Virus record (IMG/VR): IMGVR_UViG_3300009068_000115
Span: 1 to 31,651 of that record
DNA from: a virus
DNA: 31,651 bases
Reading direction: 5' to 3' (one strand)
The notes under the pieces are model-generated. The model saw only the letters and a list, made by a program, of their open reading frames with translations, did not search any database and was not told where the DNA came from. Numbering within the stretch: position 1 is the first letter of the stretch; each line of letters begins with the position of its first letter. This document shows, in pieces, positions 15,423-31,651 of the stretch. The translations under genes were made by a program, and so were the position numbers.

Positions 15423-16301
15423 GTGGGTAGACCGCACGCACCTCGTACTAGGGTTGGTACTGCTTTATCTTCTTGGAGTTTTCCTACAGGTGACGGTTTA
15501 ACAAACTTGCTTGTTATCGGTGGCGGTGGCGGTGGCGGTATGTTTGGCGGTGGTGGTGGTGCTGGTGGTTATCGTGAAGCGTCAGCAATCACATTAACTT
15601 CAGGTGCGACTTATACAATTACGGTAGGTCTTGGCGGTGCTGCTGCAACTGCAAGAACTAGCAACGGTACTAGTGGTGCGACTTCAGAGATATCAGGCAC
15701 AGGTATCACAACTGTTACTTCGGCTGGCGGTGGTGGTGCTGGTTCAGCGACTAGCGGTATTGCTGGTAGTAGCGGTGGCTCTGGTGGTGGTGGTAATGCA
15801 CAGAACGCACCCTTGACTGGCGGTGCAGGTAACACACCAAGTACATCACCAAGTCAGGGCAATAACGGTGGCACAGGTGCAGCGACTACATCGCAGGCTG
15901 GCGGTGGTGGCGGTGGTGCGTCAGCAGTTGGGGCAAATGGTACAGAAAGTCTTTTAAATGGTTTCGGTGGTGCTGGCGGTGCAGGTACAAGTTACAACAG
16001 CATTTTTTATGCAGGCGGTGGCGGTGGTTGTGGCGAGGCAGCAGGTGGTTCGGGTGGTGCAGGCGGTAATGGTGGTGGCGGTGCAGGTTCTAAACAAGCA
16101 GCGAACGCTACAGCAGGTACAGCAAACACTGGCGGCGGTGGCGGTGGCTCACGAAATGAAGGCAGTGTTGGTGCTGCTGGCGCTGGCGGTAGTGGTGTTG
16201 TGATCATTGACGCAGGACAAGTCGCAGCATCAACAACTGGCTCACCAACTTTGTCGGGAACTGTTTATACTTTTACTGGTAGTGGAACGATTACTTTCTG
16301 A
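15423..16301 (+). CDS. Gly-rich tail fibre/adhesin-like protein, copy A
   Basis: The 292 residues start at GTG 15423. A short N-terminal segment (VGTALSSWSFPTGDGL) precedes a region in which glycine dominates, with runs of up to seven. Small strands lie between the runs (ITLTSGATYTITVGLGG, ISGTGITTVTSAGG). It ends in VVIIDAGQVAASTTGSP and YTFTGSGTITF. Gly-rich domains of this kind occur in phage receptor-binding adhesins, where parallel polyglycine helices form a compact brick. The next gene is a clear paralogue. Recognition of the host surface is the likely role. Other-frame readings of the repeats are artefacts. Confidence 0.8.
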   Translation: MGRPHAPRTRVGTALSSWSFPTGDGLTNLLVIGGGGGGGMFGGGGGAGGYREASAITLTSGATYTITVGLGGAAATARTSNGTSGATSEISGTGITTVTSAGGGGAGSATSGIAGSSGGSGGGGNAQNAPLTGGAGNTPSTSPSQGNNGGTGAATTSQAGGGGGGASAVGANGTESLLNGFGGAGGAGTSYNSIFYAGGGGGCGEAAGGSGGAGGNGGGGAGSKQAANATAGTANTGGGGGGSRNEGSVGAAGAGGSGVVIIDAGQVAASTTGSPTLSGTVYTFTGSGTITF

Positions 16302-17158
16302 TGCGTTTTGATAATCGTGGTTTAGTTGGTACAGCGTTAAGTGCTTGGGGCTTTCCTACAGGTGATGGTCTGTTGGTTGCAAACTATTTAGTTGTCGGTG
16401 GCGGTGCGTCTGGCGGTGGACTTGGTGGTGGTGGCGCTGGCGGATTTCGTACTGCATCAGATATTCTTTTAACACTTGGTGCGACTTACACAATTACTGT
16501 TGGACTTGGTGGTGCAGCAGTGACCACAAATGTTGACGGTTTATCTGGTGGCAGTTCAACAATTTCTGGTACTGGCATTACTACTTTGACTTCTGCTGGT
16601 GGTGGTGGTGGCGGTACTTATTACAATGCACCAAATGTCGGCACTGCTGGTGCGTCAGGTGGTGGCGGTGGCGCTGGACCGGGCGGTGCTGGTGGTGCTG
16701 GTAACACACCAAGCACTTCGCCTAGTCAAGGCAATAACGGCGGTGCAGGTTTGACAGATGCCGCAACATTTACCGCTGGTGGTGGTGGTGGCGGTGCTGG
16801 TGTAGTAGGCAATACTGCAACTTTCCAAAATGCTGGTAACGGTGGCGCAGGGTCACTTTATAACGGCGTTTATTATGCAGGCGGTGGCGGTGGCGGAATT
16901 GACGGTCTATTTCAGCAAGGGCTCGGCGGTAATGGCGGTGGCGGTAATGGTGGCAGAAATAACACAGATAACCCACAAAACGGCACAGCGAATAAAGGTG
17001 GTGGCGGTGGCGGTGCTTACGGTGCAGCAAGTTCAGGTGCTGGCGGTAGCGGTGTTGTAATTATTGACGCAGGCAGAACAGCAGCATCAACAACAGGCTC
17101 GCCTACACTTTCTGGAACTGTTTATACTTTCACAGGTTCAGGAACAATAACCTTCTAG
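16301..17158 (+). CDS. Gly-rich tail fibre/adhesin-like protein, copy B
   Basis: The 285 residues overlap copy A by one base (TGATG). It shares the N-terminal motif VGTALSAWGFPTGDGL, the middle motif NTPSTSPSQGNNGG and nearly the same last 35 residues with copy A, while the Gly-rich centre differs in order and length. Conserved ends with a divergent centre fit a tandem duplication whose receptor-contact loops have diversified. The likely function is host adsorption. ATG 16301 is the only sensible start. Confidence 0.8.
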   Translation: MRFDNRGLVGTALSAWGFPTGDGLLVANYLVVGGGASGGGLGGGGAGGFRTASDILLTLGATYTITVGLGGAAVTTNVDGLSGGSSTISGTGITTLTSAGGGGGGTYYNAPNVGTAGASGGGGGAGPGGAGGAGNTPSTSPSQGNNGGAGLTDAATFTAGGGGGGAGVVGNTATFQNAGNGGAGSLYNGVYYAGGGGGGIDGLFQQGLGGNGGGGNGGRNNTDNPQNGTANKGGGGGGAYGAASSGAGGSGVVIIDAGRTAASTTGSPTLSGTVYTFTGSGTITF

Positions 17159-23858: not shown

Positions 23859-24556
23859 TGAGTAATGAAACAGAATCACTAATGCTGAAAGCAGTGTTAG
23901 AACAATACGCAACACCTGACCCAAAGATCGTGGGAACAATTCCACGCAACGGAATAAACCTTAGTTATGTTTCGCACAGCGAGATCACACGAATCTTGAT
24001 TGAGATTGACCCGATGTGGAATTGGCAACCTGTCGCTTGGCAAGATGGCAGACCAGCAACACACGAAGCAAACGGAATGATAACAATGTGGGCAACTCTC
24101 ACGCTGTTAAATAAATCGTTGATCGGTGTTGGCTCAGTGCGTTCAGATAAACCTGATTATGAAAAAGAATTAGTTGGCGACTTTTTGCGAAACGCTGCGA
24201 TGCGGTTTGGTATCTGTTTAAGCCTGTGGTCTAAACAGGATTGGGAACACGCAACAACGCCTGCGCCTGTTCAACAAGCAAAACAAAACCACCCTGCAAG
24301 TCCGATGACTATTAAACAGATTGAAGAAGTGTTTACAAAGCCTGCAACTGTCACTTCAATCACTGGTTTAATTTCAGATAAGCAGAAGGGTTTGATTTCT
24401 AAGTTGGCTAAAGAGAAATTAAATGGCGATGTTGCACCTTTGATTCAAGAATTGTTTAGCAAACAAAACTTAAACACTTTGACCACTAAGGAGGGTTCAG
24501 AGTTGATTAAACATATTATGAATCTGCAAACTGGCGCACCTGAAGAACCTTTTTAA
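23858..24556 (+). CDS. Single-strand annealing protein (ERF/Rad52-like)
   Basis: The 232 residues match annealing proteins paired with YqaJ nucleases in actinophages. The core runs from LSYVSHSEITRILIEIDPMW (about 31-50) through ITMWATLTLLNKSLIGVGSV to ELVGDFLRNAAMRFGICLSL and WSK, where 'DxxRNAAMRFGIxLxLW' is diagnostic. A Pro/Gln-rich linker leads to a C-terminal helical domain (ISDKQKGLISKLAKEKLNGD) common in this group. The function is annealing of resected strands for phage recombination and concatemer formation. Confidence 0.85.
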   Translation: MSNETESLMLKAVLEQYATPDPKIVGTIPRNGINLSYVSHSEITRILIEIDPMWNWQPVAWQDGRPATHEANGMITMWATLTLLNKSLIGVGSVRSDKPDYEKELVGDFLRNAAMRFGICLSLWSKQDWEHATTPAPVQQAKQNHPASPMTIKQIEEVFTKPATVTSITGLISDKQKGLISKLAKEKLNGDVAPLIQELFSKQNLNTLTTKEGSELIKHIMNLQTGAPEEPF

Positions 24557-24825
24557 TGATTGAAAAGCGTGATCATTGGCGTGAGGCTGCTGCGTGTCGT
24601 GGTATTAAACATACTGTGTTCTTTCCTCCAACTGGCATCCGGTTAGCAATTACCGATGCTGGCTGGAATGAGGCGAGAGAGATTTGCGCTCGTTGTACTG
24701 TTACTGAACAATGTTTAGAACTTGTTTTGGCGTTTCCTGATACCGATGATAAGTGGGGTATGTATGGTGGCAAGACACCTGCTGAACGGCGTGTGATCAG
24801 AGATGAGAGGCACAGGGTGCGATGA
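24556..24825 (+). CDS. whiB-like: WhiB-family iron-sulfur transcription regulator
   Basis: The 89 residues have the four cysteines that bind a [4Fe-4S] cluster (C14, C44, C47, C53) in the order C...CARC...C, a GMYGGKTPAERR turn (the G-[VIM]-[WY]-G-G motif) and a basic C-terminus (RVIRDERHRVR) for DNA contact. WhiB proteins are restricted to Actinomycetota and their phages and usually work by binding the primary sigma factor. Here it may redirect host transcription. It overlaps genes on both sides. Confidence 0.93.
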   Translation: MIEKRDHWREAAACRGIKHTVFFPPTGIRLAITDAGWNEAREICARCTVTEQCLELVLAFPDTDDKWGMYGGKTPAERRVIRDERHRVR

Positions 24826-29173: not shown

Positions 29174-29294
29174 CGATGAAACAAAAGGTGTGAACCCTTA
29201 TCGTAGGTGTGTTTGCGCTAACTGGAACAACGATGATGGCACTTGCTCATATTGTGAATGGGAAGAAGAACACAACAGCGAGGAAGAAAACTAA
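29160..29294 (+). CDS. Small Zn-binding protein (44 aa)
   Basis: ATG 29160 to TAA 29292-29294, 44 residues. Four Cys in C-x-C...C-x2-C order (RRCVCANW, then GTCSYCEW) fit one zinc site. The remainder is acidic (EEEHNSEEEN). It overlaps the neighbours on both sides (TAATG at its end), and an AGAAGGG sits upstream. Confidence 0.62.
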   Translation: MLRTDDETKGVNPYRRCVCANWNNDDGTCSYCEWEEEHNSEEEN

Positions 29295-29488
29295 TGAGCG
29301 ATTCATTGAACGCAGAAGTACAACACTGGCAGGCACGCACCGATGATATGCAAGTTGCGTTAGATCGTTTGCGTGAAGAACGAGATGCGTTAAGGGTTGC
29401 TTACGAGTTGCTACGAACAGAGGTTGTTGCTTTGCGATCTACTGTTTCAAGGATTCAGGTTGCGATGTCGCAAGGTCAAGAACTCTAA
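29294..29488 (+). CDS. Small coiled-coil protein (64 aa)
   Basis: ATG 29294 overlaps the previous stop (CTAATGA) and is preferred over the upstream in-frame start at 29258. The 64 residues have heptad leucines: LNAEVQHWQARTDDMQVALD, then RLREERDALRVAYELLRTEV, then VALRSTVSRIQVAM. It is a single long helix, probably dimeric. Function unknown. Confidence 0.68.
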   Translation: MSDSLNAEVQHWQARTDDMQVALDRLREERDALRVAYELLRTEVVALRSTVSRIQVAMSQGQEL

Positions 29489-29493
29489 AGCAA

Positions 29494-29655
29494 ATGAAAA
29501 TCCGTTGCCACAACTGCAACCACACATTTCAAGCCGACCCGAAACGAACTGTTGGGTGTCTCTGCGACAGTGACTCACCAACTTGGATAGGTGTAACATC
29601 TGGAGGCAGGCTAATAGTTTTAAGCCTCACAAAATACACAATAGAAAAGGATTGA
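29494..29655 (+). CDS. Small zinc-ribbon protein (53 aa)
   Basis: ATG 29494 to TGA 29653-29655. It starts MKIRCHNCNHTFQADPKRTV and has a second pair GCLC, forming a C-x2-C...C-x-C zinc ribbon similar to rubredoxin-like or RNA polymerase-type knuckles. The rest is strand-rich (DSPTWIGVTSGGRLIVLS). It ends one base before the ParB-like gene start, which suggests coupling. Confidence 0.65.
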   Translation: MKIRCHNCNHTFQADPKRTVGCLCDSDSPTWIGVTSGGRLIVLSLTKYTIEKD

Positions 29656-29656
29656 G

Positions 29657-30448
29657 ATGGAACAGAGACAAATAGATTTTGCAACAGTAGATGTAAACAG
29701 CATTAAAGCACACCCGAAGAATGTGCGACAAGGCGACATCGGCGCAATCTCAGAATCATTAAAAGCACACGGACAATATCGCCCGATAGTTGTTGATCGG
29801 CGCACAAACCAAATACTTGCAGGCAATCACACTTGGCGAGCAGCAAAATCTTTAGGCTGGTCACAAATCGCTGTAGGGTTCATTGAAACTAAAGATGACG
29901 ATGACGCAACACGCATCTTGCTTGCAGACAATAGAACAACCGACCTTGCTTCTTACGATGATTCAGGGCTAGCAGACTTGTTGAAAGAGTTAGTTGCGTC
30001 TGATGAAGGTTTAGAAGGCACATTGTTTGACGGTGATGCTTTAGATCAACTTCTTGTGGACTTAGACCGAGAACCGTTAAACATAGAAACAGATACAAAA
30101 TATAGTCAAGCGGTAACTGTTCCGCATTATGAAATAGTTGGTGATGAACCACAACTATCTGAACTCGTGGACAGAACAAAAGCAACTTCTTTACGCAACG
30201 ACATCTACAAAGCGAACTTGCCTAAAAACTTGGAAGAGTTCTTACTCACAGCAGCAGCACGACACCTTGTGTTTAATTACGGCAAGATCGCAGAGTTTTA
30301 TCCACATCAAGAACCTGAAGTGCAACGCTTAATGGAACAATCAGTGCTTATTATTATTGATGCTAATGACGCTATAGCAAATGGTTACGCAACTTTTAAG
30401 CAAACAATTAATGACCTAAGAGGCGAGGACTGTATTGATGTTGAATAA
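29657..30448 (+). CDS. ParB-like N-terminal domain protein
   Basis: The 263 residues start with a ParB/Sulfiredoxin-like domain: VNSIKAHPKNVRQGDIGAIS, then SLKAHGQYRPIVV, then ILAGNHTWRAAKSLGW and the later RILLADNRTTDLASYDD. In ParB proteins this fold binds CTP; in phages such proteins are often encoded beside DNA methylases or base-modifying enzymes. The C-terminal half (from about 150) is helical and includes NLPKNLEEFLLTAAARHLVF. AAAAGGATTGAG upstream of ATG 29657 is a fair ribosome site. It is not followed by ParA, so plasmid-type partition is unlikely. Confidence 0.82.
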   Translation: MEQRQIDFATVDVNSIKAHPKNVRQGDIGAISESLKAHGQYRPIVVDRRTNQILAGNHTWRAAKSLGWSQIAVGFIETKDDDDATRILLADNRTTDLASYDDSGLADLLKELVASDEGLEGTLFDGDALDQLLVDLDREPLNIETDTKYSQAVTVPHYEIVGDEPQLSELVDRTKATSLRNDIYKANLPKNLEEFLLTAAARHLVFNYGKIAEFYPHQEPEVQRLMEQSVLIIIDANDAIANGYATFKQTINDLRGEDCIDVE

Positions 30449-31316
30449 AGAAAAGTTTGCAATGTTCATCTTGACACACGGCAGACCACACGATGTCATA
30501 ACAATGCAAGCCCTAAAAGACAGCAACTACACAGGCAAAGTATTTATAGTTATTGACAACGAAGACAGTCAGGCAGATGAATATAGAAAAGTTTTCGGCA
30601 ATGAAATGGTTATACAGTTTGATAAAGCAGCCATCGGGAAAACATTTGACATAGCAGACACAAGATCAGATCGCAGAGCAACAGTATTCGCTCGCAACGC
30701 ATCTTTCCAGATCGCTCGTGATTTAGGGCTTGACTATCATATGCAATTAGATGATGACTACAAAACTTTTATGTACCGCTTTCCGAAAGATAACGAACTT
30801 AAAGGTGTAATAATAAAATCACTAGACCAAGTAATTGATGCAATGATAAAGTTATTAGAGGACACAAACGCTGTGACTGTTGCTATGGCACAAGGTGGCG
30901 ATTACATCGGAGGCGTACAAGGCTTTAACAGTAAACCTCTTATGCGTAAGGCTATGAACTCTTGGATATTCCGAACCGAACGACCTTTAACATTTGTTGG
31001 TCGCATGAACGATGATGTTAATACTTATGTAATGAACGGCATAAGAGGCGAACTAATCTTGACACCAAACAACATCTGTTTAACTGTTGCTGCAACACAA
31101 GCAGTAGCAGGAGGAATGACTGAGATGTATGTTGAGAACGGAACTTATATGAAATCAATGTACACAGTTATGATGTCACCATCATCGGTAAGCGTAAAAT
31201 ATATGGGAACATCACACCCACGCTTACACCACTCAGTGCGCTGGAACAACACAGTGCCAAAGATAATTAACCAACGACATCGCAAAACAAATGTCAATAC
31301 AACGCCCCTGCCTTAA
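30438..31316 (+). CDS. TET-associated-type glycosyltransferase (TAGT), DNA hypermodification
   Basis: ATG 30438 has GAGGA eight bases upstream; TTG 30435 is possible. The 292 residues match the phage TAGT family known from base-hypermodification loci: FILTHGRP near the start, VFIVIDNEDSQADEY, FARNASFQIARDLGLDYHMQ followed by LDDDY (a DxD-like sugar-nucleotide site, about 104-108), VAMAQGGDYIGG, GRMNDDVNTY and GGMTEMYVENGTYMKSMYTV followed by MSPSSV and VRWNNTVPKI. Family members are thought to glycosylate hydroxymethylated pyrimidines in phage DNA. Its gene overlaps the ParB-like stop. The basic tail (KIINQRHRKTN) may contact DNA. Confidence 0.85.
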   Translation: MLNKEKFAMFILTHGRPHDVITMQALKDSNYTGKVFIVIDNEDSQADEYRKVFGNEMVIQFDKAAIGKTFDIADTRSDRRATVFARNASFQIARDLGLDYHMQLDDDYKTFMYRFPKDNELKGVIIKSLDQVIDAMIKLLEDTNAVTVAMAQGGDYIGGVQGFNSKPLMRKAMNSWIFRTERPLTFVGRMNDDVNTYVMNGIRGELILTPNNICLTVAATQAVAGGMTEMYVENGTYMKSMYTVMMSPSSVSVKYMGTSHPRLHHSVRWNNTVPKIINQRHRKTNVNTTPLP

Positions 31317-31602
31317 CTGCCGAACACTTACAACTAACAGCACACGATGCACTAACTGTCAAACACTTTGGAATAAACAACACCCAAAACCTGAACGCCT
31401 ACACTACAAAGGCGACTACAAAAGAAGAGCCAAACAAATAAGAGACACAGCCATTGCCTGTTGGATATGTGGCGAAGGCAAAAGAACAAACGACCCGTTC
31501 ACAGCCGACCATTTAATACCTGCTGACCCAAACTCACCTCTCGCAGCAGCACACCGATCTTGCAACTCAAGACGACAAAACAAACCAATCACACCAAACT
31601 AG
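31291..31602 (+). CDS. HNH endonuclease
   Basis: The 103 residues start at ATG 31291 inside the glycosyltransferase gene end. An N-terminal zinc ribbon (CLNCRT...RCTNC) precedes the HNH core: ACWICGEG, then TADHLIPADPNSPLAAAHRS, then CNSRR, with the expected H, N and Cys ligands. Small HNH enzymes of this type are usually next to terminase genes and assist packaging. TerS would be close by if the contig ends are joined. Confidence 0.88.
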   Translation: MSIQRPCLNCRTLTTNSTRCTNCQTLWNKQHPKPERLHYKGDYKRRAKQIRDTAIACWICGEGKRTNDPFTADHLIPADPNSPLAAAHRSCNSRRQNKPITPN

Positions 31603-31651
31603 ACACGCACAAAAATAAATGCGATTTTTCCTAGATGCTTACAGGTGCTAC
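31603..31651 (+). other. Right end: short AT hairpin, nothing else seen
   Basis: AAAAAT (31611-31616) pairs with ATTTTT (31624-31629) around a seven-base loop. That could be a weak terminator after the HNH gene, because it ends in a T-run. No repeat of the left end of the window is visible. Confidence 0.4.

Follow-up and report, generated by a model that had tools for sequence, protein, structure and literature searches.

DNA glycosylation is understood as a process of two steps, in which a base is hydroxylated and a glycosyltransferase then adds a sugar to it; to our knowledge, all characterized DNA glycosyltransferases use such a hydroxylated base. The families concerned were reportedly defined in a 2013 paper by Iyer and colleagues. 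The closest described enzymes are the TAGTs (PF20691) of the TET-associated systems and the beta-glucosyl-HMC-alpha-glucosyltransferase of the T-even phages, and the glycosyltransferase (GT) described here belongs to the same profile family, with a GT-A fold and DxD, N-D-D and HH motifs. In contrast to those systems, our gene pair comes without TET, hmC synthase, alpha-GT or beta-GT, and the GT has an obligate partner, a C-terminal domain (CTD), which is usually fused to a ParB_N domain; near the TAGT of the T4-like Aeromonas phage Ah1, no clear CTD match was found. The pair thus has the second glycosylation step without a visible first step, and it probably glycosylates DNA by a route not yet described. 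Thymine hypermodification cassettes made up of TET/JBP, ADDT (aGPT-Pplase-like) and a kinase share the slot and the ParB_N domain with our pair and occur in close relatives, but they add amino-acid-type groups via a hydroxylated, phosphorylated base, by enzymes that the window lacks. Likewise, the CmoX/CmoA carboxymethylcytosine system (PMC12783734) is associated with a ParBc domain, and a pair of C5-methylase and CmoA-like genes fills the same slot in relatives, but the chemistry is different and no glycosyltransferase is involved. A 2026 study (PMC13216743) reports that 288 of 753 GT-encoding phage genomes have solitary TAGTs and calls these potentially novel transferases; the homologs are probably the same set as the CTD-paired GTs. 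ParB is not mentioned in the text of that study, and the passages considered contain neither a CTD partner nor slot exchange nor a replication context. In the literature searched, we found no description of ParB together with a glycosyltransferase and DNA glycosylation in phages, nor of the CTD partner or the slot exchange; an earlier mention of ParB with TAGT is possible in the family-defining paper.

The window, that is, the whole stretch of 31,651 nucleotides analyzed here, is one whole IMG/VR virus record with the gene content of a small siphovirus-like phage of ~32 kb (terminase, portal, HK97-type protease and capsid, tail genes, and a RecE/annealing protein). A WhiB transcription factor gene at 24556–24825 points to an actinobacterial host. 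Many of the window proteins are ORFans. A DNA polymerase beta palm/thumb-like protein with a C-terminal SWIM-like zinc motif (recognized by eye) is encoded at 547–1206, adjoining the terminase genes, and two consecutive related glycine-rich proteins (phrog_2295) at 15423–17158 probably reflect duplication of a tail-fibre gene. At the right end, three genes follow one another on the plus strand: the ParB_N gene (29657–30448), the TAGT gene (30438–31316), and an HNH endonuclease gene (31291–31602; phrog_338, E = 5e-5). The HNH gene also comes after the slot in relatives with different cassettes; it is probably packaging-related and lies outside the cassette proper. If the window ends are joined, HNH and TerS lie ~1.3 kb apart, compared with 1.5 kb in a contig in which this join was assembled (L004), and the layout is shared by relatives of 29–34 kb. 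In these relatives, which were found through the terminase, TerL likewise lies close to the left end and a ParB-headed slot precedes HNH. Because both the spacing and the layout match those of relatives, little or nothing is missing, and the window genome is near complete.

The earlier note had proposed a TAGT-type glycosyltransferase from position 30438, and the profile search agrees: the 292-aa product matched PF20691 with 121.5 bits (cut-off 27.5) over profile positions 2–204 of 205, and phrog_842 (“beta-glucosyl-HMC-alpha-glucosyltransferase”) with 223 bits. An AlphaFold2 model from a 93-sequence alignment had a confident GT-A fold (pLDDT 92, pTM 0.90). Among the 93 homologs, D106 and D107 of the DDD motif (D105–D107, 30750–30758, plus strand; predicted metal and nucleotide-sugar binding) are invariant and D105 is 97% conserved; in the N-D-D motif (N191–D193, 31008–31016, plus strand; putative catalytic-base region), D193 is invariant and N191 is 98% conserved; and the C-terminal H264–H265 (31227–31232, plus strand; putative metal ligand) is 98% conserved. 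Judged from these motifs and the model, the active site looks intact and the enzyme looks active. The GT frame overlaps the ParB-like frame by 11 nt, and a Shine-Dalgarno-like GGCGAGG precedes the GT ATG, as expected for coupled translation. In structure comparison, the PDB matches were distant GT-A enzymes, the best being AvpGT, TarP and COLGALT1 (TM about 0.4), and they included protein and wall-polymer glycosyltransferases. A cell-wall or polysaccharide glycosyltransferase, which the earlier note had named as an identification that would speak against its proposal, is not supported, as no wall or protein GT family was the best profile match: TAGT was the only Pfam match, NCBIfam gave none, and a PDB sequence search gave none at E ≤ 1.

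The partner is a 263-aa ParB_N-CTD protein (29657–30448, plus strand; AlphaFold2 mean pLDDT 88) that matched PF02195 with 31.9 bits (cut-off 26.3). Its N-terminal part has a ParB/Srx fold, with PDB matches to ParB/Noc at E of about 1e-6 in structure comparison, and this putative targeting domain (aa 1–135, 29657–30061, plus strand) is common to relatives with other modification cassettes. The protein thus carries the ParB_N domain by which ParB partition proteins are recognized, and its C-terminus is a GT-specific domain; among the annotated window genes, no partition partner ParA stood out. This CTD (aa 145–252, 30089–30412, plus strand) is a separate, all-helical domain of ~110 aa, for which a structure search gave no PDB fold match. 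The pairing of the GT with an overlapping ParB-like gene, already pointed out from the letters alone, holds far beyond the window: the CTD lies beside the GT in 194 of 198 GT loci, the other 4 being truncated at contig ends, and every CTD locus has a GT, including 80 of 80 loci retrieved with the ParB protein as query. In about 15 loci, a CTD without ParB_N still adjoins the GT; a ParB_N-free CTD beside a GT was also found in the 191-kb Vibrio phage pv27. Median identity was 0.47 for the CTD, 0.48 for the GT and 0.28 for ParB_N, and GT and CTD distances covaried (partial r 0.46 after TerL). No natural GT–CTD fusion was found in the 198 loci. ParB_N itself is optional and exchangeable, and the part of the ParB-like protein that is conserved as partner of the GT is the CTD, an obligate partner and a new domain rather than ParB as such.

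In a 94-member alignment, CTD residues Y158, R202, A212, Q223, L225, D235, A239 and G243 are invariant, H203 and E227 are conserved at 97–99%, and H217 at 84%. The obligate pairing, the enzyme-like level of conservation and the polar residues among these (R202, Q223, D235, H203, E227) would also suit a small hidden hydroxylase or other handle-making enzyme, with which the GT would form a two-step hydroxylation–glycosylation pair. We consider this quite improbable: the CTD has only one near-invariant histidine, a diverged form in a Porphyromonas phage lacks even H203, the PDB offered no fold match, and the ParB proteins of other cassettes likewise have short tails specific to their enzymes, suggestive of docking. 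With no second invariant histidine, the conservation pattern speaks against a metal site of the classical two-histidine type.

The earlier note had seen neither a TET/JBP oxygenase nor a hydroxymethylase in the window, and profile searches came to the same result: neither Tet_JBP (PF12851) nor thymidylate synthase (PF00303, the dCMP hydroxymethylase family) matched in the window, with positive controls for both. The Tet_JBP negative is informative because the same search was positive in four close relatives, all of them without the GT. Neither family matched in 48 GT-bearing records, and a profile built from the TET proteins of the relatives gave 0 matches in 198 GT loci. When six unrelated viruses were compared (an E. 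coli Rac-like phage, whose record is a partial genome; Lactobacillus phages c5 and jlb1; Nocardia phage NTR1; halovirus HHTV-2, over 50.0 of 52.6 kb; and the window), only two protein families, those of the GT and of the ParB-CTD protein, were common to all; the next most widespread occurred in three. A hydroxylase elsewhere in the genome was rejected on the basis of these searches and the shared-gene test, and the suggestion that the system relies on an enzyme outside the window fits neither the near-complete genome nor the six viruses that share the CTD and the GT alone. No hydroxylase appears to travel with the pair, which recurs without one in unrelated viruses of bacteria and archaea.

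An unrecognized enzyme, from the host or from a phage ORFan, could nevertheless supply a hydroxylated base, to which the TAGT would add a sugar as in TET-associated and T-even systems. This would agree with the substrate use of all characterized DNA glycosyltransferases known to us and with the many ORFans in the window. The T6 TAGT adds glucose to glucosyl-hmC (PMC13216743), and this also speaks for such an explanation. However, a third protein family common to the six GT-bearing viruses is absent, as are Tet_JBP and thymidylate synthase in the 48 records, and the explanation needs either a separate hydroxylase in every phage or a hydroxymethylated host base that E. coli, Lactobacillus, Nocardia and Haloarcula have in common. 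We therefore regard it as unlikely.

We found that the slot behind ParB_N is exchanged among close relatives. The window ParB_N is 54–70% identical to that of five relatives, and after aa 140 the per-block identity falls to 5–25% against relatives with TET, ATPase or ParB-only slots. In a comparison with relative G053, whose TerL is 90% identical to that of the window, blastn aligned 29294–30046 (68%) and 31266–31633 (79%) and nothing between, so that homology is absent over 30047–31265 (plus strand; the ParB C-terminal part and the GT) and resumes in the HNH gene. The corresponding stretch of G053 encodes a ParB tail of another kind together with Tet_JBP oxygenase, ADDT amino acid:DNA transferase and GNAT proteins, and a kinase gene lies across the contig join; another relative (G062) has ParB_N, Tet_JBP, ADDT, a P-loop kinase and HNH. 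More generally, relatives with TerL 60–90% identical carry other cassettes behind this shared ParB_N and, in most cases, ahead of the shared HNH gene, including Tet_JBP with ADDT and P-loop kinase, C5-methylase with CmoA, Mom (E = 4.5e-54), and ParB-fused N6/N4 methylases. When ParB_N alone served as query, 70 distinct loci were retrieved; 15 of these had CTD and TAGT, 9 had TET, and 0 had both.

Further sets were found at this slot. A ParB_N–N6/N4 methylase fusion followed by an Asp/Asn-hydroxylase-like protein and a PLP enzyme (L315, L322, L328, L331, L333, L340, L342) is apparently a different hypermodification set. Loci of freshwater phages with a ParB_N–Zn-ribbon protein, a C5-methylase and a CmoA-like gene (L318, L324, L326, L329, L343, L345, L368, L369, L382), some of which also have a QueC/Asn-synthase-like PP-loop protein, match the system of PMC12783734 and are likely carboxymethylcytosine cassettes. 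In five others (L304, L321, L323, L339, L349), ParB_N is followed by a protein with ABC-type ATPase and GNAT domains. One putative targeting domain, ParB_N, thus heads a range of chemistries, almost all of which belong to known DNA-modifying families, and the window has the same arrangement, with ParB_N upstream of or fused to an enzyme at a conserved slot. That the slot otherwise holds DNA-modifying families is our strongest reason for reading the TAGT pair as a DNA-modification cassette. The slot is also a natural experiment, in which phages with up to 90% identical terminases swap whole modification chemistries, and it could be used to discover more modification systems and the role that ParB_N plays in them.

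The genomic context of the pair depends on its form. ParB-fused pairs lie just upstream of the terminase, 104 of 141 having TerL no more than 2.5 kb away, whereas pairs with a standalone CTD lie in replication clusters and have PolA and a sliding clamp nearby in 6 of 15 and TerL in 1 of 15 (Fisher p = 5e-7, kinship ignored); other CTD-only pairs adjoin genes for SSB, primase or DnaB-type helicase. Both settings are thus concerned with the handling of DNA. Parsimony on a quick GT tree gave 7 changes to the standalone state, at least 3 of them on well-supported branches. A pair without ParB_N may rely on the replisome for access to DNA. The position of most ParB-fused pairs, directly upstream of terminase and head genes, would also suit glycosylation of a virion or packaging protein (capsid, portal or terminase) instead of DNA; capsid modification has been proposed for glycosyltransferases near head genes in Corndog (PMC4351075), and protein glycosyltransferases of the GT-A type are among the structural matches. 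Such a protein acceptor seems very unlikely to us, as the slot otherwise holds DNA-modifying enzymes, the ParB_N domain of the partner occurs fused to DNA methylases at the same slot, and standalone pairs lie among PolA, clamp, SSB, primase and helicase genes.

Sugar-nucleotide genes vary between cassettes, and the donor sugar therefore probably differs among phages. A cluster of SDR epimerase/dehydratase genes lies between or beside the two cassette genes in 15 loci, and a histidine phosphatase–cytidylyltransferase fusion, which possibly makes a CDP-linked donor, lies between the CTD gene and the GT in 10 (L035, L038, L049, L056, L058, L069, L071, L074, L077, L079). A UDP-galactopyranose mutase was found in one cassette locus and a sugar-1-phosphate nucleotidyltransferase in one, and some cassettes have tandem GTs. 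No gene of these kinds lies near the window pair, which probably draws on a nucleotide-sugar of the host. Separately, radical SAM proteins are encoded directly downstream of the GT in two loci (L062:8118–9191, L171:2695–3630).

We favor, with a probability of about 0.74, the reading that the CTD and the GT form a DNA-modification cassette of phages that is self-contained and exchanged horizontally. Bases of phage DNA would receive a sugar through the TAGT enzyme from a nucleotide-sugar donor, which would usually be that of the host and in some phages be made by cassette-borne sugar enzymes. The CTD would serve the GT as an obligate partner or docking subunit, and the fused ParB_N would guide the two proteins to phage DNA at about the time or place of packaging; pairs that lack ParB_N are encoded alongside the replication machinery and would probably act with it. 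No separate base hydroxylase would be used. Against this reading count the acceptor hydroxyl that known DNA glycosyltransferases need, which has no visible source here, and the structural matches of the GT to generic GT-A enzymes; we also know of no nucleoside chemistry for any ParB/CTD-linked member. The acceptor is probably DNA. Given this, there is close to an even chance that the sugar goes onto a base without an added hydroxyl, while a handle from an unrecognized host or phage enzyme is rather unlikely, it is improbable that the CTD or the GT complex makes one, and another position has only a slim chance. Tentatively, and at somewhat less than even odds, two proteins may suffice: either the TAGT with its CTD directly N- or C-glycosylates a base without an added hydroxyl, or the CTD makes the handle. 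If so, two-protein DNA glycosylation would occur in hosts from E. coli to haloarchaea, as the first hydroxylase-independent DNA glycosylation system known to us.

Seven 4-bp palindromes are almost absent from the window (observed/expected: AGCT 0/110, TCGA 0/114, CGCG 0/99, GGCC 0/51, CATG 3/77, CCGG 2/32, ACGT 6/84), and no non-palindromic tetramer there has a ratio below 0.4. This indicates that any modification gives no blanket protection from restriction. As evidence on dense modification, palindrome avoidance was dropped, because it is equally strong in relatives with TET, ParB-only or no cassette and is hence uninformative about the GT.

The cassette is common in E. coli prophages, at least 80% of it being kept in 887 of 5,426 complete E. 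coli genomes (about one in six), and the source of the acceptor can thus be tested with ordinary tools. In K-12, YnaK of the Rac prophage (b1365, L302:7878–8141) shares 99% identity with the first part of the E. coli ParB-CTD partner over 86 aa but, unlike the cassette, comes without CTD and GT. YnaK is thus the truncated N-terminus of the ParB-CTD protein of a cassette whose CTD and GT K-12 has lost.
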